A stretch of DNA of 64,000 nucleotides, taken from NCBI GenBank assembly GCA_958295645.1, contig OY282361.1:2136501-2200500 (forward strand), given 5' to 3'. A program made the position numbers and the translations under genes. Below are positions 11,249 through 60,355 of this stretch, piece after piece; within the stretch, counting starts at the first letter, position 1; the number at the start of each line of letters is the position of its first letter. The notes beneath the pieces are model-generated. The model was not told the DNA's origin. It saw only the letters and a list, made by a program, of their open reading frames with translations, and ran no database searches. This DNA is from Longimicrobiales bacterium. GTDB lineage: Bacteria; Gemmatimonadota; Gemmatimonadetes; Longimicrobiales; Gaopeijiaceae.

Positions 11249-13208
11249 CTACCGGAAGCTGATGCTTCCCACCAGGTTGAGTCTGCGTTGCGGCGGCAGG
11301 AGGCCGTCGGAGACCTGCTCGCCGAAGAGACGCAGCGCGAAGCGCAGCGGGGCGGCATCTGCCGGCTGCCGGGCGTCGGCCCGCTCCGCGCCGATCCCCA
11401 CGTTCAGGCGGTGTCCCGGCGCGCCTTCCCGGCTCCAGCGTCCGAAGGGCGTGAGCATGCCGCCGCCGGGCAGAACGACTCCGTAGCCGAACTCGACGGC
11501 CATCCGGCCTGCGGCGGAGGAGGAGGCGAGCGCCGGCTCCAGCCCGGCGGCGGCCTCCCGCCACAGAGCGCCGGCGCCGCCGGCCGCGTTGCCCCACGAG
11601 GGCTCGAGCGAGAACGACAGGCCTCCTTCCTCACGTCCCGGCTGCAGCCGCAGAGAAAAGCTCGCCCCCCAGTCGCGGAAGCCGTCCTCCTGGTGGGCGA
11701 CCAGCGCGCGGCCCCGGGCCTCCGCTGTCAGCCCCGTGGCTTGGTGCGAGAGCCCGATCGAGCCGCCCGCCTCCGCGCCCATGCCCGTCTCGGCGTCGCC
11801 GCCGTCGAAGCGCCCGCCCGCCTCGACGCGCGCATGCAGCGCCATGCTCCCGCCGACCGTCCAGCGGCCGGCGAGCTCGGGCGCCAGGCGCAGGCGCTGG
11901 GCGGCGGCCGACACGCCCGCCAAGCCGGCGGCCTCGTCGGACCGGATGCGCACGGCGAACGCGTCGGCCTTGAGCGCGAAGCTGCCCCCGAGCGCCTGGC
12001 GAACGCCCGCCGCCGTCATGCGCATGGACAAGTCCGCGCTGAAGCGGTCCGTCCCGCGCTCCGTCAAGTCGGCCCGGCCGCGGCCCGCGCCCACGAGACC
12101 CCACAGGCCCAGCCCCGGGCGGGGCGACCAGTGGAAGTACGGGTACAGGCTCGTCAGGTTGGCGTCCAGCGCGCCCGCGCCGTTGACCGCGCTCTCGAAG
12201 TCGGACTCGAGGGCGCTGCGCGAGGCGGCCAAGCCGGCCAGGAAGCCCGGCGCGAACCGGTAGTCCAGCCCCAGGTAGGCCGAGCGCGTTCGTCCCTCCA
12301 GGCTGAAGCCGTCGCCGTGACGGCCCTCGAAGCCCGCCGCGTTGGCTCGGCCCCAGAGCGTCCAGCGGGAGGCCGAACCGGACGGGTTGGCCCTGTCGCC
12401 GTCCTGGGCGTTCGTGGCCTCCGGGGCGCCGTCGCCCAGCGCCGTTGCGGCGTTGGAAGCGCCGGCATCCGGGGAGCCGCCGAAGGACAGCTGGAACGAA
12501 CTCCGCGACAGCAGGTCGCGGCCCGACACGGGGCCGAACTCGAGGCCGCCCGTCTGGGGCAGCGCCGCGCCCTCCTGCTGGCCCTGGTAGGCGCCGAGCC
12601 CGCCGCCGCCTGCGCCGGCCATGGCGGGTCCGCCTGCGGCGCCGCCGAACAGCAGGTCCGCCCCGTCGACGCTCGAGCCCGGCCCGCCCTCGTGCGACGG
12701 CACGACGAGCCGCAGGCCCAGCAGCCCTGAGGCCGTGCGCGCCAGCGACTCGAGCCCGCACGACTCGCCGGCGGCGACGCAGCCCGCGGACCGGCCGCCC
12801 AGCTGCACGTGCGAGCCGCCGGGCGCGCCCGAGCTCTCGACGCCCAGCCGACCGCCCACGGCCTCGACCGTCTCCGTGCCCAGCGACCGTCCGAACGACG
12901 CCAGCGCCAGCTTCATCGCGCGCTCCCGCTCCGAGCGCGACGCCTCCACCGTCACCTGCACCTGCTGCGACGCCTCCAGCCCGTCCGGGTCCGTCGCCGT
13001 CGCCGTCACCACGGCCGTGCCGACCGACTTCGGCGAGATCGTCAGTCGCGCCCCCTCGACCACGACCTCGGCCGTGCCCGGCGCCGACGACTCCGCCGCG
13101 TAGCGCATCGCGTCGCCGTCCGGGTCCCAGAAGTGCGCCGCCAAGTCCACGTGCGCCGCGCTCCCGTGCGCCTCGAGCGCCACGGGCGCGACGGGCACGC
13201 TCGCCTCC
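11249..13208 (-). repeat. C-terminal module (Ig-like, linker, beta-barrel) of paralog A; near-identical to 20160-22111
   Basis: The roughly 1.95-kb 3' end of paralog A aligns along its whole length with the 3' end of paralog B at 20160-22111. In the barrel of about 340 residues I find only about three substitutions (for example ISFR versus VSFR at the end, GRHGDG versus GRPGDG). Most differences and one short in-frame gap fall in the linker. This level suggests recent duplication or ongoing gene conversion. Confidence 0.9.
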
Positions 13209-16200
13209 GGCCCTTCGTTCACGTCGGTCACCGTCACGGCGACCAGCGCCTCCGCGCTCAGTCCGCCGGCGTCCGTCGCGCGCACCGCCAAGCTGTACGA
13301 CGGCCCGTCCTCGTAGTTTTCGCCCGCCCCCACGTAGCGCACCTCGCCGCTCCGCTCGTCCACCTCGAACAGAGCCCCGCCCCCCGGCGCCAGTTCGTAC
13401 GACACCGCGTCGCCCTCGTCCGGGTCCGCCGCCGACACCACGCCCACCACCACCGGGCCCACCTCGTTCTCGGCCAGATCGAACGCGTACGACTCCGCCT
13501 CGAACGCCGGCCCTTCGTTCTCGTCGGTCACCGTCACGGCGACCAGCGCCTCAGCGCTCAGCCCGCCGGCGTCCGTCGCCCGCACCGCCAAGCTGTACGA
13601 CGGCTCCGCCTCGTAGTCCTCGCCCGCCCCCACGTAGCGCACCTCGCCGCTCCGCTCGTCCACCTCGAACAGGCCCGCACCGCCCGACGCCAGCCCGTAC
13701 GACACCGCGTCGCCCGCGTCCGGGTCCGCCGCCGACACCACGCCCACCACCACCGGGCCCGCCTCGTTCTCCAGCAACTCGAACGCGTACGACTCCGCCT
13801 CGAACGCCGGCCCTTCGTTCACGTTGGTCACCGTCACGGCGACCGCCGCCTCCGCGCTCAGCCCGCCTCCGTCCGTCGCCCGCACCGCCAAGCTGTACGA
13901 CGGCTCCTCCTCGAAGTCCTCGCCCGCCCCCACGTAACGCACCTCCCCGCTCCGCTCGTCCACCTCGAACAGAGCCGCATCGCCCGACGCCAGCCCGTAC
14001 GACACCGCGTCGCCCGCGTCCGGGTCCGCCGCCGACACCATATCCAACACCACCGGGCCCGCCTCGTTCTCGGCCAACTCGAACGCGTACGACCCCGCCT
14101 CGAACGCCGGCCCTTCGTTCACGTCGGCCACCGTCACGGCGACCGCCGCCTCCGCGCTCAGCCCGCCGGCGTCCGTCGCCCGCACCGCCAGACTGTACGA
14201 CGGCCCCGCCTCGAAGTCCTCGCCCGCCCCCACGTAACGCACCTCCCCGCTCCGCTCGTCCACCTCGAACAGAGCCGCATCGCCCGACGCCAGCCCGTAC
14301 GACACCGCGTCGCCTTCGTCCGGGTCCGCCGCCGACACCGTATCCAACACCACCGGGCCCGCCACGTTCTCCAGCAACTCGAACGCGTACGGCCCCGCCT
14401 CGAACGCCGGCCCCTCGTTCACGCCGGCCACCGTCACCACGACCGCCACCTCCGCGCTCAGCCCGCCGGCGTCCGTCGCGCGCACCACCAAGCTGTACGA
14501 CGGCCCCGCCTCGTAGTCCTCGCCCCCGCCCACGTACACCACCTCCCCGCTCCGCTCGTCCACCTCGAACAGACCCGCGCCCCCGGACGCCAGCCCGTAC
14601 GACACCGCGTCGTCTTCGTCCGGGTCCGCCGCCGACACCGTATCCAACACCACCGGGCCCGCCTCGTTCTCCAGCAACTCGAACGCGTACGGCCCCGCCT
14701 CGAACGCCGGCCCCTCGTTCACGCCGGCCACCGTCACCACGACCGCCACCTCCGCGCTCAGCCCGCCGGCGTCCGTCGCGCGCACCACCAAGCTGTACGA
14801 CGGCCCCGCCTCGAAGTCCTCGCCCCCGCCCACGTAACGCACCTCCCCGCTCCGCTCGTCCACCTCGAACAGACCCGCATCGCCCGACGCCAGCCCGTAC
14901 GACACCGCGTCGTCTTCGTCCGGGTCCGCCGCCGACACCGTATCCAACACCACCGGGCCCGCCACGTTCTCCAGCAACTCGAACGCGTACGGCCCCGCCT
15001 CGAACGCCGGCCCTTCGTTCACGCCGGCCACCGTCACCACGACCGGCGCCTCCGCGCTCAGCCCGCCGGCGTCCGTCGCGCGCACCACCAAGCTGTACGA
15101 CGGCCCCGCCTCGTAGTCCTCGCCCCCGCCCACGTAACGCACCTCCCCGCTCCGCTCCCCCACCTCGAACAGACCCGCGCCCCCGGACGCCAGCCCGTAC
15201 GACACCGCGTCGTCTTCGTCCGGGTCCGCCGCCGACACCGTATCCAACACCACCGGGCCCGCCACGTTCTCCAGCAACTCGAACGCGTACGGCCCCGCCT
15301 CGAACGCCGGCCCCTCGTTCACGCCGGCCACCGTCACCACGACCGCCACCTCCGCGCTCAGCCCGCCTCCGTCCGTCGCGCGCACCACCAAGCTGTACGA
15401 CGGCCCCGCCTCGAAGTCCTCGCCCCCGCCCACGTAGACCACCTCCCCGCTCCGCTCCCTCACCTCGAACAGACCCGCATCGCCCGACGCCAGCGCGTAC
15501 GACACCGCGTCGCCCGCGTCCGGGTCCGCCGCCGACACCGTATCCAACACCACCGGGCCCGCCACGTTCTCCAGCAACTCGAACGCGTACGGCCCCGCCT
15601 CGAACGCCGGCGCCTCTTCCGCGTCCACCACCGCCACCACCACCTCCGCCTCCCTCTTCAGCCCGCCCACGTCCGACGCCGACACCACCAGCCGCCGCTC
15701 CGAAGCCGCCTCGAAGTCCTCGCCCCCGCCCACGTACACCACCTCGCCGCTCTTCTCCCCCACCTCGAACAGCCCCGCGTCCCCCTCCTCCAGCTTGTAG
15801 AACACCTCGTCGCCCTCGTCCGCGTCCGTCGCCGACACCACGCCCGCCACCACCGGACCCGCCTCGTTCTCCGCCAACTCGAACGCGTACGACTTCCCCT
15901 CGAACACCGGCGCATGACCCGGCTCCGGCTCGCGGGGACCGCCGTCCACCTTGTGCGCCGGGTTGTTCCCGAACGCCTGCGCGCCCAAGTCCAGCGCCGC
16001 GTCCACTGCGCCTCCCGCGATCTTGATCGTCCCGCCGTTCAGCGACAGCGCGTCCGCCGGCACGCCAAACCCGTCGGAGTCCCTGTCCGTTGTTGCCTGC
16101 ACCACGTAGCGGAACACCAGCACCGCCGTCCCGCTCCCCGAAGCGTACGCCGCCCGCCGCCGCTTCGCGCCAATCGTCAACGCCAGCCGCGGCTTGCCCG

Positions 16201-17518
16201 TCACCTCCACCGCCCGGTCGAACGCCACGTGCACCACGATCGCGCTCCCCGGCCGGTACGCGCCGCTCGCGCCCGGCGCGCTGGCCACCAACACTCTCGA
16301 CACCGCCGGCGCCGTCGCCACTCCGCCGTTCACCTTGTGGAGCGCGTCGTTCGAGATCGCTTGGGAGCCCAAGGCCAGCACCGCCGACATGCCGTTGTCG
16401 GCGTCATTGATCGTCCCGCCGTTCAGCGTCAGCGCACTCGCCCCGACGCTGATCCCGTCCGTGTCCTCGTCCGCAGACTGCACGCGGTAGCCGAACGTCA
16501 GGCTGGCCCCCGAACCGGAGGCGTAGGACGCCTGGCGCGTCGCCGAGCCGATCCCCAGCGCCAGTTGCGGCGCACCCGTCACCGCCACCGCCTTGTTGAA
16601 CGTCACCGCGATCTCGATCAGCTCGGCCAGCTCGTACGTGTTGCCGCTCGCCGGAGGGCTCGAAAACGACACGTCGCTCACCCCCGGCGGCCCCCGGCTA
16701 CCGTCCGCCCAAAAGCTGCCTCTCCGACCAGCTACACTTGAAGGCAACCCTAAGCTTGCCGCCGTCGTCCCGCGAGCATCGTTGATCGACCCGCCGTTCA
16801 GCGTCAGCGCACCAACGCGGATACCACCGTTGGCCGGGGGCTGATAATCGCTTGCCACCACCGTGTAGCGGAACAGTAGAGTGGTCGTCCCCGTGCCCGA
16901 GGCGTAGTTCGCTTGGCGCGTCACCGAGCCGATCCCCAGCGCCCACTGCGGCGTGCCCGTCACCGTCACCGGGCGGTTGAATATCACCGTCATCTCGATC
17001 TGCTCGCCCAGCTCATGAATGCGGCCAAGAGAGACGCCGCCTCGCGTAGGAAAGGCTAAAGAAACCGACGCCGCCGTGAACGTCGCGCCGTTCACCTTGT
17101 GGCCAGAGGCGTTGGTGATCGCATGACTCCCTAGACTCAGACTGCTGATCAGGGCTCCGTGCTGGTTATAGACGTTCCCGGTCAACGCCCCTGTCGCGAT
17201 GCTGATTCCGTCGGTGTCCACGTCTGCTGTCACCACCGTGTACCGGAACACCAGCGAGCTCGTCGCGGTATTCGCGGGCGTAATAGTGTTCACTTGGCGC
17301 GTCGCCGAGCCGATCCCCAGCGCCAGACCCGGCACGAACGAGGAGCGCCGGTGCACGGTGCCGCTGAAATGCACCGTGACCTCGATGGTCTCGCCACGCT
17401 CGTACGTGGCGCTCACCCACGGCGTGCTGCTGATGGTCACGTTGTTGACCAACTGTGCCTTCGCGTCGCCCGCAACCGTGGTAGCGAGCACCAAGGCGAC
17501 AACTAAGCATCTACGCAT
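11249..17518 (-). CDS. Giant surface autotransporter paralog A (SwmB-like and cadherin-like repeats, C-terminal beta-barrel)
   Basis: A protein of about 2089 residues. Order from the N-terminus: signal peptide (MRRCLVVALVLATTVAGDAKA); four repeats of the SwmB/SWM type (ETIEVTV..F, GTPQLALGIG, YASGTGT..L.FRYTV, LNGGTI); nine cadherin-like repeats with DPDEGD and DVNEGP blocks that may bind calcium; one Ig-like domain (LAAHFWDPDGD); a Gly/Ala-rich linker with a helix (MKLALASFGRSLGTE); and a barrel of about 340 residues starting near WTLWGRANA and ending in ISFR. This is the layout of a type Va autotransporter: the barrel inserts in the outer membrane and the repeats are displayed outside. Start 17518 has GGAGGAG at 17526-17532; ATG 17560 has AGGAGG at 17569-17574 and adds 14 residues. 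It lies 118 bp downstream of hipA on the same strand. Function is inferred as adhesion or surface interaction. Confidence 0.88.
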   Translation of the reverse strand: MRRCLVVALVLATTVAGDAKAQLVNNVTISSTPWVSATYERGETIEVTVHFSGTVHRRSSFVPGLALGIGSATRQVNTITPANTATSSLVFRYTVVTADVDTDGISIATGALTGNVYNQHGALISSLSLGSHAITNASGHKVNGATFTAASVSLAFPTRGGVSLGRIHELGEQIEMTVIFNRPVTVTGTPQWALGIGSVTRQANYASGTGTTTLLFRYTVVASDYQPPANGGIRVGALTLNGGSINDARGTTAASLGLPSSVAGRRGSFWADGSRGPPGVSDVSFSSPPASGNTYELAELIEIAVTFNKAVAVTGAPQLALGIGSATRQASYASGSGASLTFGYRVQSADEDTDGISVGASALTLNGGTINDADNGMSAVLALGSQAISNDALHKVNGGVATAPAVSRVLVASAPGASGAYRPGSAIVVHVAFDRAVEVTGKPRLALTIGAKRRRAAYASGSGTAVLVFRYVVQATTDRDSDGFGVPADALSLNGGTIKIAGGAVDAALDLGAQAFGNNPAHKVDGGPREPEPGHAPVFEGKSYAFELAENEAGPVVAGVVSATDADEGDEVFYKLEEGDAGLFEVGEKSGEVVYVGGGEDFEAASERRLVVSASDVGGLKREAEVVVAVVDAEEAPAFEAGPYAFELLENVAGPVVLDTVSAADPDAGDAVSYALASGDAGLFEVRERSGEVVYVGGGEDFEAGPSYSLVVRATDGGGLSAEVAVVVTVAGVNEGPAFEAGPYAFELLENVAGPVVLDTVSAADPDEDDAVSYGLASGGAGLFEVGERSGEVRYVGGGEDYEAGPSYSLVVRATDAGGLSAEAPVVVTVAGVNEGPAFEAGPYAFELLENVAGPVVLDTVSAADPDEDDAVSYGLASGDAGLFEVDERSGEVRYVGGGEDFEAGPSYSLVVRATDAGGLSAEVAVVVTVAGVNEGPAFEAGPYAFELLENEAGPVVLDTVSAADPDEDDAVSYGLASGGAGLFEVDERSGEVVYVGGGEDYEAGPSYSLVVRATDAGGLSAEVAVVVTVAGVNEGPAFEAGPYAFELLENVAGPVVLDTVSAADPDEGDAVSYGLASGDAALFEVDERSGEVRYVGAGEDFEAGPSYSLAVRATDAGGLSAEAAVAVTVADVNEGPAFEAGSYAFELAENEAGPVVLDMVSAADPDAGDAVSYGLASGDAALFEVDERSGEVRYVGAGEDFEEEPSYSLAVRATDGGGLSAEAAVAVTVTNVNEGPAFEAESYAFELLENEAGPVVVGVVSAADPDAGDAVSYGLASGGAGLFEVDERSGEVRYVGAGEDYEAEPSYSLAVRATDAGGLSAEALVAVTVTDENEGPAFEAESYAFDLAENEVGPVVVGVVSAADPDEGDAVSYELAPGGGALFEVDERSGEVRYVGAGENYEDGPSYSLAVRATDAGGLSAEALVAVTVTDVNEGPEASVPVAPVALEAHGSAAHVDLAAHFWDPDGDAMRYAAESSAPGTAEVVVEGARLTISPKSVGTAVVTATATDPDGLEASQQVQVTVEASRSERERAMKLALASFGRSLGTETVEAVGGRLGVESSGAPGGSHVQLGGRSAGCVAAGESCGLESLARTASGLLGLRLVVPSHEGGPGSSVDGADLLFGGAAGGPAMAGAGGGGLGAYQGQQEGAALPQTGGLEFGPVSGRDLLSRSSFQLSFGGSPDAGASNAATALGDGAPEATNAQDGDRANPSGSASRWTLWGRANAAGFEGRHGDGFSLEGRTRSAYLGLDYRFAPGFLAGLAASRSALESDFESAVNGAGALDANLTSLYPYFHWSPRPGLGLWGLVGAGRGRADLTERGTDRFSADLSMRMTAAGVRQALGGSFALKADAFAVRIRSDEAAGLAGVSAAAQRLRLAPELAGRWTVGGSMALHARVEAGGRFDGGDAETGMGAEAGGSIGLSHQATGLTAEARGRALVAHQEDGFRDWGASFSLRLQPGREEGGLSFSLEPSWGNAAGGAGALWREAAAGLEPALASSSAAGRMAVEFGYGVVLPGGGMLTPFGRWSREGAPGHRLNVGIGAERADARQPADAAPLRFALRLFGEQVSDGLLPPQRRLNLVGSISFR
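13209..15916 (-). repeat. Nine tandem cadherin-like repeats of exactly 300 bp (paralog A)
   Basis: Nine 100-residue units, each built as AFEAGPYAFELLEN, SAADPD, LFEVDERSGEVRYVG, RATDAGGLSAE and DVNEGP. The DNA keeps a strict 300-bp register through the array. The first unit (15.6-15.9 kb) is the most divergent and the inner ones are nearly identical. Confidence 0.93.
15917..17455 (-). repeat. Four SwmB-like repeats in paralog A
   Basis: Four units of about 110-130 residues with the pattern Y..GE.IEV.V.F..PV.VTGTPQLALGIG..TRQA.YASG(T/S)GT..L.FRYTV, LNGG.I and a final HKV(N/D)G. The unit nearest the cadherin array and the one before it correspond closely to the last two SwmB-like units of paralog B (24.8-25.6 kb). 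Confidence 0.85.
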
Positions 17519-17531
17519 CTCTTGTCTCCTC

Positions 17532-17564
17532 CGACCGTGAACATCGTCGACCGTGAACATCGCC
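17532..17564. repeat. Tandem duplication between two candidate starts of paralog A
   Basis: CGACCGTGAACATCG is present twice, 17 bp apart, across 17532-17564. It separates two ATG codons (17560 and 17518) that are in frame and each preceded by a strong Shine-Dalgarno sequence. Either can start the protein. Confidence 0.6.
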
Positions 17565-17636
17565 AGCGCCTCCTGGAATATGGCCCGCCCTGCGTGCTAC
17601 CTCAAGCGGTCGGGTTCCGCCAGAGGGATTGCCGGC

Positions 17637-18917
17637 TCAGGGCTCCCGCGTGAAGAACAGCCCGTCGGGCAAGAAGGCGCTCCGCACGGTCTCGCGGTCT
17701 GCGGCCCCGACGCCTGCGCGGCACATCGCCCCCAGCCAGCGCCTCCGGACCGTCCGAACCACTTCGGCGAAGATCGCTTCCGCGTCCTCGCGGCTCATCA
17801 GGAAACGTCCTGCGCCGGCCACCAAGTTGTCCTTCCTGGCTCGCCGGCCTTCCGGGCCGCAGATCATGGACAGGTCCCGCTCCAGGGAGTGCGCCGGCGC
17901 TGGCGTGAGGTCGTAGGCGGGGGCCAAGCGCCACGAGCGGCCGCGAGCGAGGATTGCGTGATTGCGCGGATGGTCGTCCGAGTTGGAGACGGCCGCGTTG
18001 AAGCACATGCGCCTGAAGAGTTCGCGGAGATCCTCTCTCGGGCGGGCGCTGGCGCGGCGCACCTCGTCGGCCAGCGCCAAGTAGGACCAGCGTTCGCGCC
18101 CCGTCGGCGAGTCGTCCGTGCGCAACAGGGTCAGCGCGCTGGCCATGCGATGCCGAAGCCACCCCGCGCCGTCGCCGGAACGCTCCCGGTCGAAGCGGCG
18201 GACCAGGAGCACGTCTCGGTCCCCAGCGCGCTCGATTCGGCTCGGCGCAGTGCGGATGCCGCACTCCCGCGCCAGCGCCAGCAACGCGTGCTCCACCCTG
18301 GGATCGTTCCACCGGTCCTGGAGCCGGCTGAACTTGGCGAGCCAGAGCGCGTCGCCGTCCTCCACGACCGCCTTGGGCCTTGCGCCGCCCATCGACGTGC
18401 CCTCGTCGAAGATGGCGTGGACCATCTCTTCGACCGCTCCACCGCCGGCCGGCTCGACGACTCGCCCGGCCGCCACCGCCTCCGCAGCGGCCTGGAGATC
18501 GGCCAGCTGCACGGTTCCCGGGAACTGCAGGCGCGGCGCCGGCGGGTCCACCGTGGGACCGAAGCCGAGCGCGCCCGCGCGGTCGTCCGGCCCCTCCGTC
18601 AGGTAGTCGAACTCCGCCAGCGGCGATCTGCCCAGCCGGCGCTCGATCAGGAATCGCCCCCAGTAGTCGGGCATGGCGTCCCGCACGGCCCCGAAGAATC
18701 CGCCCATCCGGCCCGTCCGGTACAGGCGGTTCGCGAGAGGAAGCTCCACCGGGTCGAACTCCACCGCCTCCGGGCGCTCCAGATAGCTCCGTCCGTAGAC
18801 GAACTCGCCAGTTGCCGTCCCGCGGGGGCCACGCCGAATGCGGAACCGGCCCGCAGTGGTGAACTGGACGTCGCCCGGCAGGACGATGTAGACGTAGCAG
18901 CTCCGGTCAGAAGTCAT
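17637..18917 (-). CDS. hipA: HipA-family serine/threonine kinase toxin
   Basis: A 426-residue HipA-like protein, near the usual length. The conserved GTSMGGARPK loop is at 173-182, the candidate ATP lysine in LAKFSR at K195, the catalytic block NSDDHPRNH at 312-320 and the Mg-binding Asp in LAPAYDL at D336. E. coli HipA phosphorylates glutamyl-tRNA synthetase and induces dormancy; related kinases hit other synthetases, so the target here is unknown. The start overlaps the end of the upstream HTH gene by 11 bp, the standard hipBA arrangement. It lies between the two giant surface genes, co-oriented with paralog A. Confidence 0.92.
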   Translation of the reverse strand: MTSDRSCYVYIVLPGDVQFTTAGRFRIRRGPRGTATGEFVYGRSYLERPEAVEFDPVELPLANRLYRTGRMGGFFGAVRDAMPDYWGRFLIERRLGRSPLAEFDYLTEGPDDRAGALGFGPTVDPPAPRLQFPGTVQLADLQAAAEAVAAGRVVEPAGGGAVEEMVHAIFDEGTSMGGARPKAVVEDGDALWLAKFSRLQDRWNDPRVEHALLALARECGIRTAPSRIERAGDRDVLLVRRFDRERSGDGAGWLRHRMASALTLLRTDDSPTGRERWSYLALADEVRRASARPREDLRELFRRMCFNAAVSNSDDHPRNHAILARGRSWRLAPAYDLTPAPAHSLERDLSMICGPEGRRARKDNLVAGAGRFLMSREDAEAIFAEVVRTVRRRWLGAMCRAGVGAADRETVRSAFLPDGLFFTREP

Positions 18918-19248
18918 TGTCCAGGGCGCGGCGCCGGCGCGCGAGACGGGGGAGCGCCGCCCGCTCCAGCGCCTTGCCCGGTTCGTCGCGCTCCGGGGCC
19001 GCCACTTCCTTCGCTTGGTCGAGCAGGCCCAGGGCCCACAGCGCCGCGAAGTAGGCGGCGGCCGATGTGCCGGGCTTGCCTCGCTCCAAGTCGGCGACCG
19101 TGTAGCGCGAGACGCCCATCCGCTCGGCCAAGTCCTCCATCCGCAGGCGGCGGCGGAGACGGGCCGTGCGGATGTTGCCGCCCAGAGTCCGAAGGGCTTC
19201 CTCGATGGCGGCCGGCGGGTCGGTCGTCAGCAGTGTTGGTGTCGGCAT
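18907..19248 (-). CDS. hipB: HipB-like XRE-family antitoxin/repressor
   Basis: A 113-residue protein with a Cro/C1-type helix-turn-helix around residues 25-70 (NIRTARLRRRLRMEDLAERM, VSRYTVADLERGKPG). HipB proteins bind and neutralise HipA and repress their own promoter. The C-terminal third is charged and Arg-rich, as is common for antitoxin tails. It overlaps hipA by 11 bp. Upstream, at 19249-19310, is a relatively AT-rich stretch (TTTATGACAATAT) likely to hold the promoter and operator, though I could not identify a clear inverted repeat. Confidence 0.88.
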   Translation of the reverse strand: MPTPTLLTTDPPAAIEEALRTLGGNIRTARLRRRLRMEDLAERMGVSRYTVADLERGKPGTSAAAYFAALWALGLLDQAKEVAAPERDEPGKALERAALPRLARRRRALDNDF

Positions 19249-19499
19249 GTTGGCTTCGTTCCACGAGAAATGAGTTGGCGTTGCTTTATGACAATATGCG
19301 ATGCGGCGGCTCGCGGTGCCAAATGTCGTCGCCGTGGTTGTCTCTGCGGCTGTTGCAGCACTTCGCCTGGTCGGTGCGCCACCAGCAGCAGCAGGACACG
19401 GACATCCTGACGGTGCGAGTGGAGGTGGCGGGGCGTCTTCGACGACCGCCGAGCCTGTCGGCTGAAGAGAGGCTCGCGTCTTCGCTCAGCGCGAGCTAG
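19249..19499. other. Region upstream of hipB with no firm gene
   Basis: The first 60 bp are AT-rich for this genome and probably contain the hipB promoter. On the + strand a 58-codon frame (19323-19499) begins with ATG and ends at a TAG; it has no recognised motif and could be chance or a gene scrap. Confidence 0.3.
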
Positions 19500-19673
19500 C
19501 TGGACGTCTCCATCGTCGCTAGGACGACCGCCCGATCCCACCTCGCCGAGCGGATCGAGGTTCGCGCACCCGTCAAGACTCCCTACAGCCACCTGCTGGC
19601 CACGCCCCACGAGGGCGCCGGGCTGTACGAGCGGAGCGGATGGCAGGTCGGCGAGCGGGGCGAGCGCGTGTGA
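19500..19673 (+). pseudogene. C-terminal remnant of a GNAT-like acetyltransferase
   Basis: A frame opening after a stop at 19497-19499 and ending in TGA at 19671-19673 encodes about 57 residues ending in LATPHEGAGLYERSGWQVG. The AGLYERSGW block is the typical last beta-strand/helix region of GNAT-fold N-acetyltransferases (aLYer.GF). No start codon or acetyl-CoA-binding motif precedes it, so I read it as the tail of a decayed gene. Confidence 0.4.
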
Positions 19674-19689
19674 ACCGGATGGCGGCGTC

Positions 19690-20111
19690 TTGGGCCGCCG
19701 GTGGCGGCGCCGCCGACCTGGACACGTGTACGTCTTCGACTGCACCGAAGAGGAGTGTCGGAGCACCCGGGTGGACGGCGACCCCGTGGGCGACGAGTCG
19801 GTGATCGTCCAGCGTCCGGCGGCGGGCAAGTGGAAGGTCGTGGTGGACGCGGCGGCGGTTCCGGCGGACGCAGAGTCGGTGGGGTACGAGTACCTCGACG
19901 TGGTGTTCAACCCGTCCTACGGCGCTGCGGCGGCCACCGATCTGCCTCAGGAACGAGCCGTGGGCGCCCGCTGGACCACCGAGGTACGCGCTTGGGCGGC
20001 CCCGGCGGTCCACGGCGAAGGCCGGACGCCCTACTTGGCCGTGGCGCTGGAGGCTCGGCCGGCGCCGGCGTCTACTGGGCCAAGATCGCGGAGGTGGTGT
20101 CCGGGAACTAG
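19690..20111 (+). pseudogene. Decayed C-terminal end of a secreted protein
   Basis: A readable stretch (VYVFDCTEEECRST, KWKVVVDAAAVPA, GYEYLDVVFNPSYG) resembles the C-terminal beta domain found after secreted subtilase or hydrolase domains. The preceding residues AADLD are in another frame, separated by an apparent two-base insertion near 19725, and the natural end VYWAKIAEVVSGN (TAG 20109-20111) is again in a different frame. At least two frameshifts and no N-terminus mark it as a remnant. A sequence with the same VVSGN ending lies at 60603-60627 beside the third giant-protein copy. Confidence 0.45.
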
Positions 20112-20126
20112 CGGCTAGCTAGCCGC
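20111..20126. other. Perfect 16-bp palindrome between convergent reading frames
   Basis: GCGGCTAGCTAGCCGC reads the same on both strands. It begins in the stop codon of the decayed + strand gene and lies 34 bp beyond the stop of giant paralog B. A degenerate version is at 60621-60640 beside the third copy. It may act as a bidirectional terminator; there is no T tract. Confidence 0.5.
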
Positions 20127-20159
20127 GCTGAACGCTCCGGAATCTGCGCCGTCTCGGGC

Positions 20160-22111
20160 CTACCGGAAGCTGACCGAGCCGACCAGGTTGAGTCTGCGTT
20201 GCGGCGGCAGGAGGCCGTCGGAGACCTGCTCGCCGAAGAGACGCAGCGCGAAGCGCAGCGGGGCGGCATCTGCCGGCTGCCGGGCGTCGGCCCGCTCCGC
20301 GCCGATCCCCACGTTCAGGCGGTGTCCCGGCGCGCCTTCCCGGCTCCAGCGTCCGAAGGGCGTGAGCATGCCGCCGCCGGGCAGAACGACTCCGTAGCCG
20401 AACTCGACGGCCATCCGGCCTGCGGCGGAGGAGGAGGCGAGCGCTGGTTCCAGCCCGGCGGCGGCCTCCCGCCACAGAGCGCCGGCGCCGCTGGCCGCGT
20501 TGCCCCACGAGGGCTCGAGCGAGAACGACAGGCCTCCTTCCTCACGTCCCGGCTGCAGCCGCAGAGAAAAGCTCGCCCCCCAGTCGCGGAAGCCGTCCTC
20601 CTGGTGGGCGACCAGCGCGCGGCCCCGGGCCTCCGCTGTCAGCCCCGTGGCTTGGTGCGAGAGCCCGATCGAGCCGCCCGCCTCCGCGCCCATGCCCGTC
20701 TCGGCGTCGCCGCCGTCGAAGCGGCCGCCCGCCTCGACGCGCGCATGCAGCGCCATGCTCCCGCCGACCGTCCAGCGGCCCGCGAGCTCGGGCGCCAGGC
20801 GCAGGCGCTGGGCGGCGGCCGACACGCCCGCCAAGCCGGCGGCCTCGTCGGACCGGATGCGCACGGCGAACGCGTCGGCCTTGAGCGCGAAGCTGCCCCC
20901 GAGCGCCTGGCGAACGCCCGCCGCCGTCATGCGCATGGACAAGTCCGCGCTGAAGCGGTCCGTCCCGCGCTCCGTCAAGTCGGCCCGGCCGCGGCCCGCG
21001 CCCACGAGACCCCACAGGCCGAGCCCCGGGCGCGGCGACCAGTGGAAGTACGGGTACAGGCTCGTCAGGTTGGCGTCCAGCGCGCCCGCGCCGTTGACCG
21101 CGCTCTCGAAGTCGGACTCGAGGGCGCTGCGCGAGGCGGCCAAGCCGGCCAGGAAGCCCGGCGCGAACCGGTAGTCCAGCCCCAGGTAGGCCGAGCGCGT
21201 TCGTCCCTCCAGGCTGAAGCCGTCGCCGGGACGGCCCTCGAAGCCCGCCGCGTTGGCTCGGCCCCAGAGCGTCCAGCGGGAGCCCGAACCGGACGGGTTG
21301 GCCCTGTCGCCGTCCTGGGCGTTCGTGGCCTCCGGGGCGCCGTCGCCCAGCGCCGTTGCGGCGTTGGAGGCGCCGGCATCTGGGGGACCGCCGAAGGACA
21401 GCTGGAACGAACTCCGCGACAGCAGGTCGCGGCCCGACACGGGGCCGAACTCGAGGCCGCCCGTCTGGGGCAGCGCCGCGCCCTCCTGCTGGCCCTGGTA
21501 GGCGCCGAGCCCGCCGCCGCCTGCGCCGGCCATGGCGGGTCCGCCGCCGAACAGCAGGTCCGCTCCGTCGACGCTCATGCCCGGCCCGCCCTCGTGCGAC
21601 GGCACGACGAGCCGCAGGCCCAGCAGCCCTGAGGCCGTGCGCGCCAGCGACTCGAGCCCGCACGACTCGGCGGCGGCCGCGCAGCCCGCGGACCGGCCGC
21701 CCAGCTGCACGTGCGAGCCGCCGAGCGCGCCCGAGCTCTCGGCGCCCAGCCGGCCGCCCACGGCCTCGACCGTCTCCGTGCCCAGCGACCGTCCGAACGA
21801 CGCCAGCGCCAGCTTCATCGCGCGCTCCCGCTCCGAGCGCGACGCCTCCACCGTCACCTGCACCTGCTGCGACGCCTCCAGCCCGTCCGGGTCCGTCGCC
21901 GTCGCCGTCACCACGGCCGTGCCGATCGACCCCGGCGAGATCGTCAGACGCGCCCCCTCGACCACGACCTCGGCCGTGCCCGGCGCCGACGACTCCGCCG
22001 CGTAGCGCATCGCGTCGCCGTCCGGGTCCCAGAAGTGCGCCGCCAAGTCCACGTGCGCCGCGCTCCCGTGCGCCTCGAGCGCCACGGGCGCGACGGGCAC
22101 GCTCGCCTCCG
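20160..22111 (-). repeat. C-terminal module (Ig-like, linker, beta-barrel) of paralog B
   Basis: Second copy of the module at 11249-13208. The linker carries the same amphipathic segment (MKLALASFGRSLGTE), which may be the helix that occupies the barrel pore, and two cysteines (SAGC and ESCG) conserved in both copies. The barrel begins near WTLWGRANA (about 21.28 kb). Confidence 0.9.
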
Positions 22112-25100
22112 GCCCTTCGTTCACGTCCGTCACCGTCACGGCGACCAGCGCCTCCGCGCTCAGTCCGCCGGCGTCCGTCGCGCGCACCGCCAAGCTGTAC
22201 GACGGCCCGTCCTCGTAGTTTTCGCCCGCCCCCACGTAGCGCACCTCGCCGCTCCGCTCGTCCACCTCGAACAGAGCCCCGCCCCCCGGCGCCAGTTCGT
22301 ACGACACCGCGTCGCCCGCGTCCGGGTCCGCCGCCGACACCACGCCCACCACCACCGGGCCCGCCTCGTTCTCGGCCAGATCGAACGCGTACGGCCCCGC
22401 CTCGAACGCCGGCCCCTCGTTCACGTCGGCCACCGTCACGGCGACCAGCGCCTCCGCGCTCAGCCCGCCGGCGTCCGTCGCCCGCACCGCCAGACTGTAC
22501 GACAGCCCCGCCTCGTAGTCCTCGCCCCCGCCCACGTAACGCACCTCCCCGCTCCGCTCGTCCACCTCGAACAGACCCGCGCCCCCGGACGCCAGCCCGT
22601 ACGACACCGCGTCGTCTTCGTCCGGGTCCGCCGCCGACACCGTATCCAACACCACCGGGCCCGCCACGTTCTCCAGCAACTCGAACGCGTACGGCCCCGC
22701 CTCGAACGCCGGCCCCTCGTTCACGTCGGCCACCGTCACGGCGACCAGCGCCTCCGCGCTCAGCCCGCCGGCGTCCGTCGCGCGCACCACCAAGCTGTAC
22801 GACGGCCCCGCCTCGAAGTCCTCGCCCCCGCCCACGTAACGCACCTCCCCGCTCCGCTCGTCCACCTCGAACAGACCCGCGCCCCCGGACGCCAGCCCGT
22901 ACGACACCGCGTCGCCCGCGTCCGGGTCCGCCGCCGACACCGTATCCAACACCACCGGGCCCGCCACGTTCTCCAGCAACTCGAACGCGTACGGCCCCGC
23001 CTCGAACGCCGGCCCCTCGTTCACGTCGGTCACCGTCACCACGACCGGCGCCTCCGCGCTCAGCCCGCCGGCGTCCGTCGCGCGCACCACCAAGCTGTAC
23101 GACGGCCCCGCCTCGTAGTCCTCGCCCCCGCCCACGTAACGCACCTCCCCGCTCCGCTCGTCCACCTCGAACAGACCCGCGCCCCCGGACGCCAGCCCGT
23201 ACGACACCGCGTCGTCTTCGTCCGGGTCCGCCGCCGACACCGTATCCAACACCACCGGGCCCGCCACGTTCTCCAGCAACTCGAACGCGTACGGCCCCGC
23301 CTCGAACGCCGGCCCCTCGTTCACGCCGGCCACCGTCACCACGACCGGCGCCTCCGCGCTCAGCCCGCCGGCGTCCGTCGCGCGCACCACCAAGCTGTAC
23401 GACGGCCCCGCCTCGAAGTCCTCGCCCCCGCCCACGTAACGCACCTCCCCGCTCGTCTCCCCCACCTCGAACAGACCCGCGCCCCCGGACGCCAGCCCGT
23501 ACGACACCGCGTCGTCTTCGTCCGGGTCCGCCGCCGACACCGTATCCAACACCACCGGGCCCGCCACGTTCTCCAGCAACTCGAACGCGTACGGCCCCGC
23601 CTCGAACGCCGGCCCCTCGTTCACGCCGGCCACCGTCACCACGACCGCCACCTCCGCGCTCAGCCCGCCGGCGTCCGTCGCGCGCACCACCAAGCTGTAC
23701 GACGGCCCCGCCTCGTAGTCCTCGCCCCCGCCCACGTAGACCACCTCCCCGCTCCGCTCGTCCACCTCGAACAGACCCGCGCCCCCGGACGCCAGCCCGT
23801 ACGACACCGCGTCGTCTTCGTCCGGGTCCGCCGCCGACACCGTATCCAACACCACCGGGCCCGCCTCGTTCTCCAGCAACTTGAACGCGTACGACTCCGC
23901 CTCGAACGCCGGTGCCTCTTTCTCGTCCACCACCGCCACCACCACCTCCGCCTTCACACTCAGCCCGCCCCCGTCCGTCGCAGACACCTCCAGCCGCCGC
24001 TCCGAAGCCGCCTCGAAGTCCTCGCCCCCGCCCACGTACACCACCTCGCCGCTCTTCTCCCCCACCTCGAACAGACCCGCATCGCCCGACGCCAACGCGT
24101 ACGACACCGCGTCGCCCGCGTCCGGGTCCGCCGCCGACACCGTATCCAACACCACCGGGCCCGCCTCGTTCTCCGCCAACTTGAACGCGTACGACTCCGC
24201 CTCGAACGCCGGTGCCTCTTTCTCGTCCACCACCGCCACCACCACCTCCGCCTTCACACTCAGCCCGCCCCCGTCCGTCGCAGACACCTCCAGCCGCCGC
24301 TCCGAAGCCGCCTCGAAGTCCTCGCCCCCGCCCACGTACACCACCTCGCCGCTCTTCTCCCCCACCTCGAACAGACCCGCATCGCCCGACGCCAGCGCAT
24401 ACGACACCGCGTCGCCCGCGTCCGGGTCCGCCGCCGACACCGTATCCACCACCACCGGACCCGCCTCGTTCTCCGCCAACTTGAACGCGTACGACTCCGC
24501 CTCGAACACAGGCGCCTCTTCCGCGTCCACCACCGCCACTACCACCTCCGCCTCCCTCTTCAGCCCGCCCACGTCCGACGCCGACACCACCAGCCGCCGC
24601 TCCGGCTCCGCCTCGAAGTCCTCGCCCCCGCCCACGTACACCACCTCGCCGCTCTTCTCCCCCACCTCGAACAGCCCTGCGTCCCCCTCCTCCAGCTTGT
24701 AGAACACCTCGTCGCCCTCGTCCGCGTCCGTCGCCGACACCACGTCCACCACCACCGGACCCGCCTCGTTCTCCGCCAACTCGAACGCGTACGACTTCAC
24801 CTCGAACACCGGCGCATGACCCGGCTCCGGCTCGCGGGGACCGCCGTCCACCTTGTGCGCCGGGTTGTTCCCGAACGCCAGCGCGCCCAAGTCCAGCGCC
24901 GCGTCCACTGCGCCTCCAGCGATCTTGATCGTCCCGCCGTTCAGCGACAGCGCGTCCGCCGGCACGCCGAACCCGTCGGAGTCCCCGTCCGCTGCCTGCA
25001 CCACGTAGCGGAACACCAGCACCGCCGTCCCGCTCCCCGAAGCGTACGCCGCCCGCCGCCGCTTCGCGCCAATCGTCAACGCCAGCCGCGGCTCGCCCGA

Positions 25101-28100
25101 CACCTCCACCAGCCGGTCGAACGCCACGTGCACCACGATCGCGCTCCCCGGCCGGTACGCGCCGCTCGCGCCCGGCGCGCTGGCCACCAACACTCTCGAC
25201 ACCGCCGGCGCCGTCGCCACTCCGCCGTTCACCTTGTGGAGCGCGTCGTTGGTGATCGCGTTGGCGCCCAGGGCCAGCACCGCAGACCGCACGCCGTCCA
25301 GGGCGTTCTTGATCGTTCCGCCGTTCAGCGTCAGCGCACTCGGCCCGACGCTGATCCCGTCCGTGTCCTCGTCCGCAGACTGCACGCGGTAGCCGAACGT
25401 CAGGCTGGCCGTGCCCGTCACCGAGGCGTAGTCCGCTTGGCGCGTCGCCGAGCCGATCCCCAGCGCCAGTTGCGGCGCACCCGTCACCACCACCGCCCGG
25501 TCGAACGTCACCCGCACCTCGATCAGCTCGGCCAGTCCGTACGCGTCGCCGCTCGCCGGAAGGCTCGAAAACGACACGTCGGACACCGAGGCAGCCGCAA
25601 TCGAACCGTTCACCTTGTGGCTGAAGCTGTTGGTGATCGCGTTCGCGCCCAGCCCCAGGCTCGCCGCCGTCGTCCCGTCGCGCGCGTCGTTGATCGACCC
25701 GCTGTTCAGCGTCAGCGCACCCGCCCCGACGCTGATCCCGTCCGCGTCGCTGTCCGCCGCCACCACCGTGTACCGGAACGTCAGGCTGGCCGTCCCCGTA
25801 CCCGAGGCGTAGGAAGCCTGCCGCGTCTGCGTGCCGATCCCCAGCGCCAGTTGCGGCGCGCCGCTCACGGTCACGGGCCGCGTGAACGTCACCGCCACCT
25901 CGATCTGCTCGCCCCGCGCGTACGTGTTGCCGCCCGCCGGAGCGCTCGCTATCGCCGTTGCGCTCACCGCCGACGCCGTGAACGTCCCGCCCGCCACCTT
26001 GTGGTTGGAGCTGTTGTCGATGGCGTTCGCGCCTAGGCCCAGCAGCGCGTCCAACGCCCCGCCCGCCACGTCGATCGACCCGCTGTTCAGCCCCAGCGCG
26101 TTTGCCCCGACGCTGATCCCGTCCGTGTCCGCGTCGCCCGAGGCGACCGTGTACCGGAACACCAGCGACGCCGTGCCCGTGCCCGAGACGTAGCCGGCCT
26201 GGCGAGTCGCCGAGCCGATCCCCAGCGCCAGCTGCGGCGTGCCGCCCACGTCCACCGCCTTGTTGAACGTCACCGTGACCTCGATGGCCTCGCCACGCTC
26301 GAACGTGTCGCCCACCGCCGGCGGGCCGATCGCCACGCCCGTCACGCCCGGCGGCCCCTGGGCGCCGTCCACCATGTGGTCCCCGTCGTTGGTGATCGCG
26401 TTCGTGCCCAGCCCGAGGCTCGCCGCAGCCGCCGCGTCGCGAGCGTCGTTGATCGACCCGCTGTTCAGCGTCAGCGCGTTCGCCGCGACGCTGATCCCGT
26501 CCGTGTCGCTGTCGGATGCCTGCACCGTGTACCGGAAGACCAGGACCGTCGCCGTGCTCGGGCTCGAGGCGTAGGAAGCCTGGCGGGTCGCCGAGCCGAT
26601 TCCCAGCGCCAGTTGCGGCGGGCCCGTCACCGTCACCGCCCGGTTGAACGTCAGCTGCACCTCGATCTGCTCGCTCAGACCGTACGTGCTGCCGCTCGCC
26701 GGGCTGCTCGCTATCGCCGCGCCGCTCACCGTCGCCGCCGTCAACGTCCCGCCCGCCACCTTGTGGCCGGAGCTGTTGTCGATCGCGTTCGCGCCCAGAC
26801 CCAGCAGTGCGTCCAACGCCCCGCCCGCCACGTCGATCGACCCGCTGTTCAGCGTCAGCGCGGTCGCTGCGACGCTGAGCCCGTCGTTGTCCGTATCCGC
26901 CTGCACCACCGTGTACTCGAAGACCAGCGACGCCGTGCCCGTGCCCGAGGCGTAGGACGCCTGCCGCGTCTGCGCGCCGATCCCCAGCGCCAGCTGCGGC
27001 GTGCCGCTCACGTCCACCGCCTTGTTGAACGTCACGGTGACTTCGATGGCCTCGTCCCGCTCGAACGTGTCCCCCACCGCCGGAGAGCCGATCGCCACGC
27101 CCGTCACACCCGGCGGCCCCTGGGCGCCGTCCACCCTGTGGCTGGAGCTGTTCGTGATCGCATTGGTCCCCAGCCCCAGGCTCGCCGCCGTCGCCGCGTC
27201 CCGCGCGTCGTTGATCGCGCCGCTGTTCAACCCCAGCGCGGTCGCCCCGACGCTGAGCCCGTCCGTGTCGCTGTCCGCCGCCTGCACCGTGTAGCGGAAG
27301 ACCAGAACCGTCGCCGTGCTCGGGCTCGAGGCGTAGTTCGCTTGGCGAGTCGCCGATCCGATCCCCAGCGCCAACTGCGGCGGGCCCGTCACCGTCACCG
27401 GGCGGTTGAACGTCAGCTGCACCTCGATGGTCTCGCCCAGCCCGTACGTGCTGCCGCTCGAAGGGCTGCTCGCTATCGCCGCGCCGCTCACCGTCGCCGC
27501 CGTCAACGTCCCGCCCGCCACCTTGTGGCTGGAGCTGTTCTCGATCGCGTTCGCGCCCAGACCCAGCAACGCGTCCAACGTCCCGCCCGCCACGTCGATC
27601 GACCCGCTGTTCAGCCCCAGCGCGTCCGCCGCGATGCTGAGCCCGTCGTTGTCCGTATCCGCCTGCACCACCGTGTACTCGAAGACCAGCGACGCCGTGC
27701 CCGTGCCCGAGGCGTAGGACGCCTGCCGCGTCTGCGCGCCGATCCCGAGCGCCAGCTGCGGCGTGCCGCCCACGTCCACCGCCTTGTTGAACGTCACCGT
27801 CACCTCGATCGTCTCGCCCCGCTCGTAGATGTCGCCCACGACCGGCGAGTTCAGCGCCACGCCCGTCACCCCCGGCGGCCCCTGGGCGCCGTCCACCTTG
27901 TGGTCCCCGTCGTTGGTGATCGCGTTCGTGCCCAGCCCCAGGCTCGCCGCCGTCGTTCCGTCGCGAGCGTCGTTGATCGACCCGCTGTTCAGCGTCAGCG
28001 CGGTCGCCCCGACGCTGATCCCGTCGTTGTCGCTGTCCGCCGTCACCACGGTGTAGCGGAACGTCAGGCTGTTCGTCCCCGAACCGGAGGCGTAGGACGC

Positions 28101-31100
28101 CTGCCGCGTCTCCGTGCCGATCCCGAGCGCCAGCTGCGGCGTGCCGCCCACCGTCACGGGCCGCGTGAACGTCACCGCCACCTCGATGGTCTCGCTCAGC
28201 CCGTACGTGCTGCCGCTCGCCGGGCTGCTCGCTACCGCTGCGCCGCTCACCGCCGCCGCCGTCAACGTCCCGCCCGCCACCTTGTGGCTGGAGCTGTTCT
28301 CGATCGCGTTCGCGCCCAGACCCAGCAACGCGTCCAACGTCCCGCCCGCCACGTCGATCGACCCGCTGTTCAGCCCCAGCGCGTCCGCCGCGATGCTGAG
28401 CCCGTCGTTGTCCGTATCCGCCTGCACCACCGTGTACTCGAAGACCAGCGACGCCGTGCCCGTGCCCGAGGCGTAGGACGCCTGCCGCGTCGCCCCGCCG
28501 ATCCCCAGCGCCAGCTGCGGCGTGCCGCCCACGTCCACAGCCTTGTTGAACGTCACCGTCGCCTCGATCGTCTCGCCCCGCTCGTAGATGTCGCCCACGA
28601 CCGGCGAGTTCAGCGCCACGCCCGTCACGCCCGGCGGCCCCTGGGCGCCGTCCACCCTGTGGTCCCCGTCGTTGGTGATCGCGTTCGTGCCCAGCCCGAG
28701 GCTCGCCGCCGTCGTTCCGTCGCGAGCGTCGTTGATCGACCCGCTGTTCAGCGTCAGCGCGGTCGCCCCGACGCTGATCCCGTCCGTGTCGCCGTCCGCC
28801 GCCTGCACCGCATAACGGAAGACCAGGACCGTCGCCGTGCTCGGGCTCGAGGCGTAGTCCGCTTGGCGCGTCTCCGTGCCGATCCCCAGCGCCAGCTGCG
28901 GCGGGCCCGTCACCGTCACCGGGCGGTTGAACGTCAGCTGCACCTCGATCTGCTCGCCCAGCCCGTACGTGCTGCCGGTCGCCGGGCTACTCGCTACCGC
29001 CGCGCCGCTCACCGCCGCCGCCGTGAACGTCCCGCCCGCCACTTTGTGGCTGGAGCTGTTCTCGATCGCGTTCGCGCCCAGACCCAGCAGCGCGTCCAAC
29101 GCCCCGCCCGCCACGTCGATCGACCCGCTGTTCAGCCCCAGCGCGTCCGCCGCGATGCTGAGTCCGTCGTTGTCCGTGTCCGCCTGCACCACCGTGTACT
29201 CGAAGACCAGCGACGCCGTGCCCGTGCCCGAGGCGTAGGACGCCTGCCGCGTCTGCGCGCCGATCCCCAGCGCCAGCTGCGGCGTGCCGCCCACGTCCAC
29301 CGCCTTGTTGAACGTCACCGTCACCTCGATCGTCTCGCCCCGCTCGTAGATGTCGCCCACGACCGGCGAGTTCAGCGCCACGCCCGTCACCCCCGGCGGC
29401 CCCTGGGCGCCGTCCACCCTGTGGTCCCCGTCGTTGGTGATCGCGTTCGTGCCCAGCCCCAGGCTCGCCGCCGTCGCCGCGTCGCGCGCGTCGTTGATCG
29501 ACCCGCTGTTCAGCGTCAGCGCGGTCGCCGCGACGCTGATCCCGTCCGTGTCGCTGTCGGATGCCTGCACCGTGTACTGGAAGGTCAGGCTCGTCGCCGT
29601 GCTCGAGCCGGAGGCGTAGTCCGCTTGGCGCGTCTCCGAGCCGATCCCCAACACCAGCTGCGGCGGGCCGCTCACCGTCACGGGCCGCGTGAACGTCACC
29701 GCCACCTCGATGGTCTCGCTCAGCCCGTACGTGTTGCCGCTCGCCGGGCTGCTCGCTATCGCCGCGCCGCTTACCGCCGCCGCCGTCAACGTCCCGCCCG
29801 CCACCTTGTGGCTGGAGCTGTTCTCGATAGCGTTCGCGCCCAGACCCAGCAACGCGTCGATCGTCCCGCTCGCCACGTCGATCGACCCGCTGTTCAGCCC
29901 CAGCGCGTCCGCCGCGATGCTGAGCCCGTCGTTGTCCGCGTCGCCCGAGGCGACCGTGTACTCGAAGACCAGCGACGACGTCCCCGTGCCCGAGGCATAG
30001 GACGCCTGCCGCGTCGCCGCGCCGATCCCCAGCGCCAGCTGCGGCGTGCCGCCCACGTCCACCGCCTTGTTGAACGTCACCGTCGCCTCGATCGTCTCGC
30101 CCCGCTCGTAGATGTCGCCCACGACCGGCGAGTTCAGCGCCACGCCCGTCACCCCCGGCGGCCCCTGGGCGCCGTCCACCTTGTGGTCCCCGTCGTCGGT
30201 GATCGCGTTCGTGCCCAGCCCCAGGCTCGCCGCCGTCGTCCCGTCGCGAGCGTCGTTGATCGCGCCGCTGTTCAGCCCTAGCGCGGTCGTTGCGACGCTG
30301 ATCCCGTCCGTGTCGCCGTCCGCCGCCTGGACCGTATAGCGGAAGACCAGGACCGTCGCCGTGCTCGGGCTCGAGGCGTAGATCGCTTGGCGCGTCTCCG
30401 TGCCGATCCCCAGCGCCAGCTGCGGCGGGCCCGTCACCGTCACCGGGCGGTTGAACGTCAGCTGCACCTCGATCTGCTCGCCCAGCCCGTACGTGCTGCC
30501 GCTCGAAGGGCTGCTCGCTACCGCCGCGTCGCTCACCGCCGCCGCCGTGAACGTCCCGCCCGCCACCTTGTGGCTGGAGCTGTTCTCGATCGCGTTCGCG
30601 CCCAGGCCCAGCAGCGCATCGGTGGTCCCGCCCGCCACATCGATCGACCCGCCGTTCAGCGACAGCGCGTTCGCCGCGATGCTGAGTCCGTCGTTGTCCG
30701 CGTCCGCCTGCACTACCGTGTACTCGAAGACCAGCGACGCCGTGCCCGTGCCCGAGGCGTAGGACGCCTGCCGCGTCTGCGCGCCGATCCCCAGCGCCAG
30801 CTGCGGCGTGCCGCCCACGTCCACCGCCTTGTTGAACGTCACCGTCACCTCGATCGTCTCGCCCCGCTCGTAGATGTCGCCCACGACCGGCGAGTTCAGC
30901 GCCACGCCCGTCACCCCCGGCGGCCCCTGGGCGCCGTCCACCTTGTGGTCCCCGTCGTTGGTGATCGCGTTAGTGCCCAGCCCCAGGCTCGCCGCCGTCG
31001 TCCCGTCGCGCGCGTCGTTGATCGACCCGCTGTTCAGCCCCAAAGCGGTCGCCGCGACGCTGATCCCGTCCGTGTCGCCGTCCGCCGCCTGGACCGTATA

Positions 31101-60241: not shown

Positions 60242-60303
60242 TTCCTGCGATCCGGTCGATCCGGTAAAGGGCAGATCACGGTGTGCCTTGGCGTCGCGGG
60301 GAC

Positions 60304-60329
60304 GGGGGGGGGGGGGGGGGGGGGGGGGG
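60304..60329 (-). repeat. 26-base G homopolymer (poly-C on the coding strand) at the 5' end of paralog B
   Basis: An uninterrupted G26 run followed by AGGGAG. If translation starts at ATG 60343, the tract encodes eight prolines just after the first five codons and is, as assembled, in frame with the signal peptide. If translation starts at 60241 it lies 62-88 bp upstream, in the leader or promoter. Such tracts change length by polymerase slippage. Confidence 0.8.
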
Positions 60330-60342
60330 AGGGAGTTCGTCA

Positions 60343-60355
60343 TAGGGCCACCTCT
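60343..60355 (-). promoter_or_regulatory. Shine-Dalgarno and alternative ATG for paralog B
   Basis: AGAGGTGG (60355-60348) precedes ATG 60343 by a good distance: the GAGGT core leaves six bases. By contrast ATG 60241 has only AGGAA directly abutting it. On ribosome-binding evidence the upstream start is better, although it gives an unusually long region before the hydrophobic signal core. Confidence 0.55.

Follow-up and report, generated by a model that had tools for sequence, protein, structure and literature searches.

A complete HipBA module between two paralogous giant genes of a Longimicrobiales bacterium, probably a recent arrival in an incidental position

Why should a toxin-antitoxin pair stand between two giant genes predicted to encode surface proteins? 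The hipBA genes of a Longimicrobiales bacterium are found in such a place, between the paralogous genes A and B, and we studied them in a window of 64 kb, by which we mean the whole stretch of DNA analysed (Table 1). The original prediction gave the position a meaning in two ways: the pair could stabilise a locus prone to deletion by A/B recombination, or its transcription could read through into A and link dormancy with surface display. In our judgement the position is quite probably incidental: a complete type II HipBA module would have arrived recently, by horizontal transfer, in a mosaic and decaying stretch of the chromosome. This reading is based on the gene content, the predicted fold, the kinase residues, the pairing of the genes, their low dN/dS, a similarity to a relative's copy above that of the core genome and a linkage that is not conserved.

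Table 1. Coordinates of the hipBA module, its neighbours and its candidate regulatory sites in the window.
Feature	Position	Strand	Description	Basis or remark
hipA	17637..18917	-	Predicted Ser/Thr kinase toxin, 426 aa	Pfam HipA_C, predicted fold, invariant residues
hipB	18907..19248	-	HTH antitoxin, presumed autorepressor, 113 aa	HTH families, profile match, pairing
Unit common with L021 (closest relative)	17633..19321	-	92-95% DNA identity	Except an 82-bp stretch absent in L021
Promoter-like site of hipBA	19293..19322	-	TTGGCA-N18-CATATT	Promoter scan; at edge of DNA common with L021
Possible HipB operator	19278..19297	-	ATATTG-N8-CAACGC	Weak, symmetry limited to TTG/CAA core
hipA-A gap	17519..17636	-	118 bp; TTGAGG-N17-CATATT	Hexamer at -64 to -59 from A start
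Gene A	11249..17518	-	2,089 aa from ATG 17518	Signal peptide and C-terminal barrel by eye, N-terminal repeats, cadherin-like repeats
Gene B	20160..60041	-	13,293-aa open frame	99% identity to A in the C-terminal domain
Relic, 3' end of a gene intact in G039	19341..19469	+	90% DNA identity; gene at least 163 aa in G039	About 20 bp from edge of hipBA unit
Relics in pieces, S8 subtilase-like gene	19542..20113	+	94% DNA identity at 19542-19668 and 19690-20113	

The existence of a complete HipB/HipA pair between A and B is confirmed by its open reading frames, by the match of HipA residues 174-394 to Pfam HipA_C (E 2.5e-48) and by those of HipB to HTH_31 and HTH_3. The orientation is also as predicted: A, hipBA and B all lie on the minus strand, with 118 bp from the hipA stop to the ATG of A at 17518. 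Two further models fall below their cut-offs, slightly for Pfam Couple_hipA on HipA (20.7 bits against 22.5) and, with an E of 6e-8, for NCBIfam couple_hipB on HipB; the HipB profile finds the PDB chain 9u9g, named 'HipB', with E 2e-12. The two frames overlap by 11 bp (18907-18917), with no third gene between them. A hipB relative lies just upstream of hipA in 80/80 related loci, these being the best 80 of 137 found among genome contigs; the shared pairing and the HipA_C match put the predicted pair beyond chance.

The structural model of HipA (mean pLDDT 84.9) superposes on E. coli HipA over residues 5-423 (Z 30.4, rmsd 3.6, 362 residues aligned), and its alignment from residue 5 places the N-terminal lid (N-subdomain-1) in the same chain as the kinase. 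Across 28 HipA sequences, G177, G178, K182, K195, D314, N319 and D336 are invariant and the Gly-rich stretch GTSMGGARPK is invariant or almost so; one locus, L052, was left out of this alignment for a stop inside its translation. In the 2wiu chain the counterparts of D314 and N319 are D309 and N314. Judged by the roles of these residues in E. coli HipA, the kinase residues are intact. Measured against the closest relative, hipB has a dN/dS of 0.076 and hipA one of 0.126. In the 2.89-Mb single-contig genome the only match to the window HipA at E 0.001 or better is HipA itself. The pair is a complete HipBA module and is probably active.

In modules of this type HipA is toxic and is neutralised by HipB, and the target of the kinase is a tRNA synthetase. 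By analogy with the family, HipB of the window would bind and neutralise HipA and repress its own promoter, and HipA would have the toxicity and target of its homologues. According to PMC8262856, hipBA kinases with upstream HTH antitoxins fall in clades I, II and IV-VIII.

The promoter-like site of hipBA is the only one in 17300-20300, where shuffles lead one to expect 0.1. The candidate HipB operator that overlaps it is a poor match to that of relatives, a point against our main reading; six of them carry a perfect ATGTTG-N8-CAACAT in the same region upstream of hipB. At the 8-base spacing, perfect 6-base arms occur in 9/79 upstream regions versus 2.1 in shuffles (two of the 81 regions, shorter than 100 bases, were excluded); the spacings 0 and 2 give 20 regions each, which makes other operator types the prevailing ones across the wider family. 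On our main reading the module would have brought a promoter with it, and a second one may serve A.

The closest hipBA among the best 80 of 137 loci is L021, in another Longimicrobiales genome: its HipA and HipB are 95% and 97% identical to those of the window. That genome, recorded as both G039 and G042 (presumed one and the same from identical coordinates), represents another genus of the window's family. Its RimM, Ffh and TrmD are 67%, 75-76% and 81% identical to the window's; at the DNA level the flanking core reaches 73-76%, and an aminotransferase gene, located elsewhere there, 83%. The hipBA genes are far more alike than the compared core genes, which points to their recent horizontal transfer; that it ran towards the window we infer. 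The similarity begins at the -35 hexamer and extends slightly beyond the hipA stop, and it ceases at both edges, as compared by eye. The HipA of L021 has an in-frame deletion of 27 residues immediately preceding the Gly-rich loop (L021:10001-11200): the closest relative may itself be altered, which we count against our main reading.

Within one family this module is seen in no fewer than four settings, and its copies in two genera resemble each other much more closely than the core genomes do. In L021 it adjoins a restriction-modification gene, encoding a 1,497-aa Mrr_cat_2/ResIII/N6_Mtase protein; in G011 NHL and DUF1028 genes flank it, a DNA context repeated in G061, and G069 has it at yet another location. 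In a tree built by a quick method from the window, the 80 loci and, of the copies in relatives, the five best (the weaker L007-L020 were omitted), the window pairs with L021, and their sister is a set of five that includes G011. The HipA of L023 is identical to that of G011, a member of the window's own family; accordingly the 'Gammaproteobacteria' labels of L022-L024, which come from the submitters' titles, are probably wrong.

There are related HipA proteins, all less than 60% identical, in 157 plasmid records, including 47 typed as conjugative; a phage collection gave two distant matches, of at most 33% identity. A repeat search of 17480-19500 found no terminal or flanking repeats fit for a transposon; it returned a 15-bp tandem pair just upstream of the start of A (17532-17562) and GC-rich matches resembling chance. 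Two negative results count against our main reading: no tRNA was found in the 64-kb window, and no terminal repeats at the module edges.

The surroundings are themselves a mosaic. In G039 the counterpart of the subtilase-like relics between hipB and B is an intact gene of 1,090 aa, and the relic nearest to the module corresponds to its neighbour gene there; that place has no hipBA, which lies about 320 kb away. A further relic, upstream of B (60798-60957), shares 91% identity with the 5' part of a paralog in G039 that is 1,219 aa long. About 51 kb of the window (9879-61074), comprising the aminotransferase gene, A, hipBA and B, are missing at the corresponding G039 place (L137), where trmD and a 262-aa gene are adjacent. 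In 18 other loci neither the 262-aa gene nor the aminotransferase gene stands beside trmD, within flanks of at most about 1.5 kb; the sole additional aminotransferase match (L159) is not a trmD locus, and the 262-aa gene is also absent from the fetched stretch of G041 and G069. These two genomes (L194, L195) have, 6 to 9 kb beyond trmD, a weak match of 29-30% identity to the C-terminal domain of A, on the strand of trmD, whereas A of the window is on the strand opposite. The trmD place may favour A-type genes, or may have held such genes earlier.

For A itself, the listed open reading frame starts at 17560, and translation from the ATG at 17518 yields, by eye, a signal peptide; its C-terminal domain has no match in Pfam, 'barrel' being a label given by eye. 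The frame of B ends 911 bp upstream of hipB. A signal-peptide-like stretch of B lies just upstream of it in a different frame (59700-60380), from which the predicted start of B is broken or misassembled. A third paralog, C (L123, G000:C1:2345000-2364999), shares 97% identity with A in its C-terminal domain; downstream of C follow the same subtilase relic (96%) and then, by eye, a CRISPR-array-like stretch and cas-like genes. C has no hipA upstream, there being one HipA in the whole genome. Within the window genome (G000) the C-terminal domains of A, B and C have 97-99% identity to A, as against 58-63% in G039, a pattern that suggests recent duplication or gene conversion of the A-type domain in the window genome. 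In G039 this domain is found at 7 places, two of which fall in open frames about 12,000 aa long; the giant frames with a related C-terminal domain measure 12,557 and 11,976 aa (C2:214126-215307, C2:440024-441205).

If position mattered, hipBA and A-type genes would be expected to travel together. The C-terminal domain, N-terminal repeats and cadherin part of A gave a match at E 1e-4 in 0/80 hipBA loci, the best 80 of 137 (1,134,643 bases; 34 of them are at least 15 kb long and the shortest is about 3 kb, so that flanks are short in some), while an identical search, as a positive control, detects A-type sequence in 5/5 known paralog loci. At the level of whole genomes the picture is different. 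In 58 family genomes, drawn evenly from a larger group, a close-clade hipB (E <= 1e-50) is present in 5 and the C-terminal domain of A in 7, and all 5 are among the 7: G000, G042, G069, G011 and G061. The Fisher probability is 21/4,582,116, about 5e-6, a figure that ignores relatedness and the query bias, as the window supplied both queries. The window's Ffh is matched best in G042, G069 and G041 (74-76%), that of G011 and G061, which form one genus, being 63-64% identical; by this measure the five genomes apparently make up two lineages. Relatedness and query bias can explain the 5/5 co-occurrence, which nonetheless counts against an incidental position.

The survey of co-occurrence called for by the original prediction gave a divided answer: in the genomes sampled the two co-occur, and they are adjacent in the window only. 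Among the five sampled genomes with a close hipB, the gene adjoins an A-type gene in the window only; it is on a contig with no match to the domain in G011, G061 and G069, and about 320 kb from the nearest one in G042. The next closest approach is in G069, where about 11 kb separate a more distant hipB-like gene from such a domain. We favour an incidental position because the module probably arrived recently and its linkage is not conserved.

A different role can be sought in defence, with hipBA as an abortive-infection module carried among anti-phage cargo. We regard this as unlikely, though worth keeping in mind. The restriction-modification gene beside the closest copy speaks for it, anti-phage defence is listed among the roles of toxin-antitoxin pairs in PMC8262856, and the window protein at 61849-63864 matches a PADLOC MADS model (mad3, E 1.3e-29). 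However, Pfam reads that same protein as an ABC transporter, PADLOC has no match in three of the four other window proteins tested besides HipA and HipB, and its matches to HipA and HipB are weak.

Less likely again, in our estimate, is the deletion lock, in which A/B recombination removes hipBA, residual HipA kills the cells that have lost it, and the A-B block is thereby protected. Its geometry is real: A and B form direct repeats, which over the 5.8 kb from their 3' ends have 93% identity and a longest exact run of 263 bp, and hipBA sits within the segment that their recombination would delete. The absence of the 51-kb block from the corresponding G039 place and the 5/5 co-occurrence agree with it as well. 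Elsewhere such stabilisation has been observed: in Shewanella islands after induced excision, loss was undetected in the wild type and reached 0.39% and 0.82% without hipAB (PMC8978831), and a plasmid HipBA stabilised its replicon about 10,000-fold (PMC11487325). By this analogy a lock by hipBA is plausible and generic stabilisation possible. Against the lock, G039 retains its 7 places with the C-terminal domain of A and about 320 kb separate its hipBA from the nearest of them, and the linkage is conserved neither in the best 80 of 137 loci nor in the 58 genomes. Of the proposed stabilisation of the locus, the arrangement holds and the conserved linkage does not. Under an incidental position, any stabilising would be a generic toxin-antitoxin effect on nearby DNA, with no function evolved together with A and B.

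The other proposed role, in which hipBA transcription enters A and couples dormancy to surface display, was not supported, and we consider it very unlikely. The hipBA genes and A share a strand and lie 118 bp apart, and no terminator-like site was found in 17300-20300, so the independent terminator that would separate them is not apparent; an RNA-family search around hipBA gave no match. As for a promoter of A, the hexamers in the gap (8/12 matches) are below the threshold of the promoter scan, which leaves room for read-through. Yet A and paralog C have in common a 26-base block, 21/26 identical, that starts within the -10-like hexamer and in C stands 33 bp further from the start. Its score of 32, against at most 31 in 500 shuffles, is marginal, as is the case that A may have a promoter of its own; C, with the same block, has no hipA upstream, and the hipBA genes of relatives precede different genes.

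Slightly more doubtful still is an addiction lock captured in this lineage in particular, where A/B recombination would be frequent, copies without the lock would have been lost, and the 5/5 co-occurrence would reflect repeated recruitment. Were a lock of either kind true, the locus would be a natural example of a toxin-antitoxin pair guarding a deletion-prone giant chromosomal gene cluster. That hipBA is a decayed or silent remnant, as its neighbouring relics and the 27-residue deletion of L021 HipA might hint, is the least probable of all, because the frames and kinase residues are intact and dN/dS is low.

Altogether, the predicted pair is real and probably functional, and it serves as a warning against inferring function from position.

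Among known systems, HipBA of E. coli K-12 (PDB 3tpd, 2wiu) has the same full-length HipA fold with an N-terminal lid, the same kinase residues and hipB upstream of hipA; it differs in sequence, with 19% identity to the window HipA in the structural alignment, and GTSMGGARPK is the form of the Gly-rich stretch in the window. HipH/YjjJ is a single gene in which an HTH domain is fused to the kinase. This identity is ruled out for our pair: the NCBIfam YjjJ model scores 38.1 bits versus a cut-off of 401, and the HTH is in a separate gene. HipT of the HipBST systems of Legionella and E. coli O127 shares the fold of the kinase core (Z 20.6-23.0 versus the window HipA model), but HipT is described in PMC8262856 without the N-terminal lid and with a separate hipS. 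The 426-aa window HipA carries the lid, and hipB and hipA overlap with nothing between, which rules out HipBST.

The island HipAB of Shewanella putrefaciens CN-32 is likewise a toxin-antitoxin pair in chromosomal DNA that differs between relatives, 48 kb there and about 51 kb in the window; the integrases, attachment sites and measured excision and loss given in PMC8978831 belong to Shewanella. HipBA of Klebsiella michiganensis (PMC11487325) is plasmid-borne, with toxicity and stabilisation measured there, while the window pair is chromosomal; the two have in common hipB placed before hipA, the classical type II organisation.
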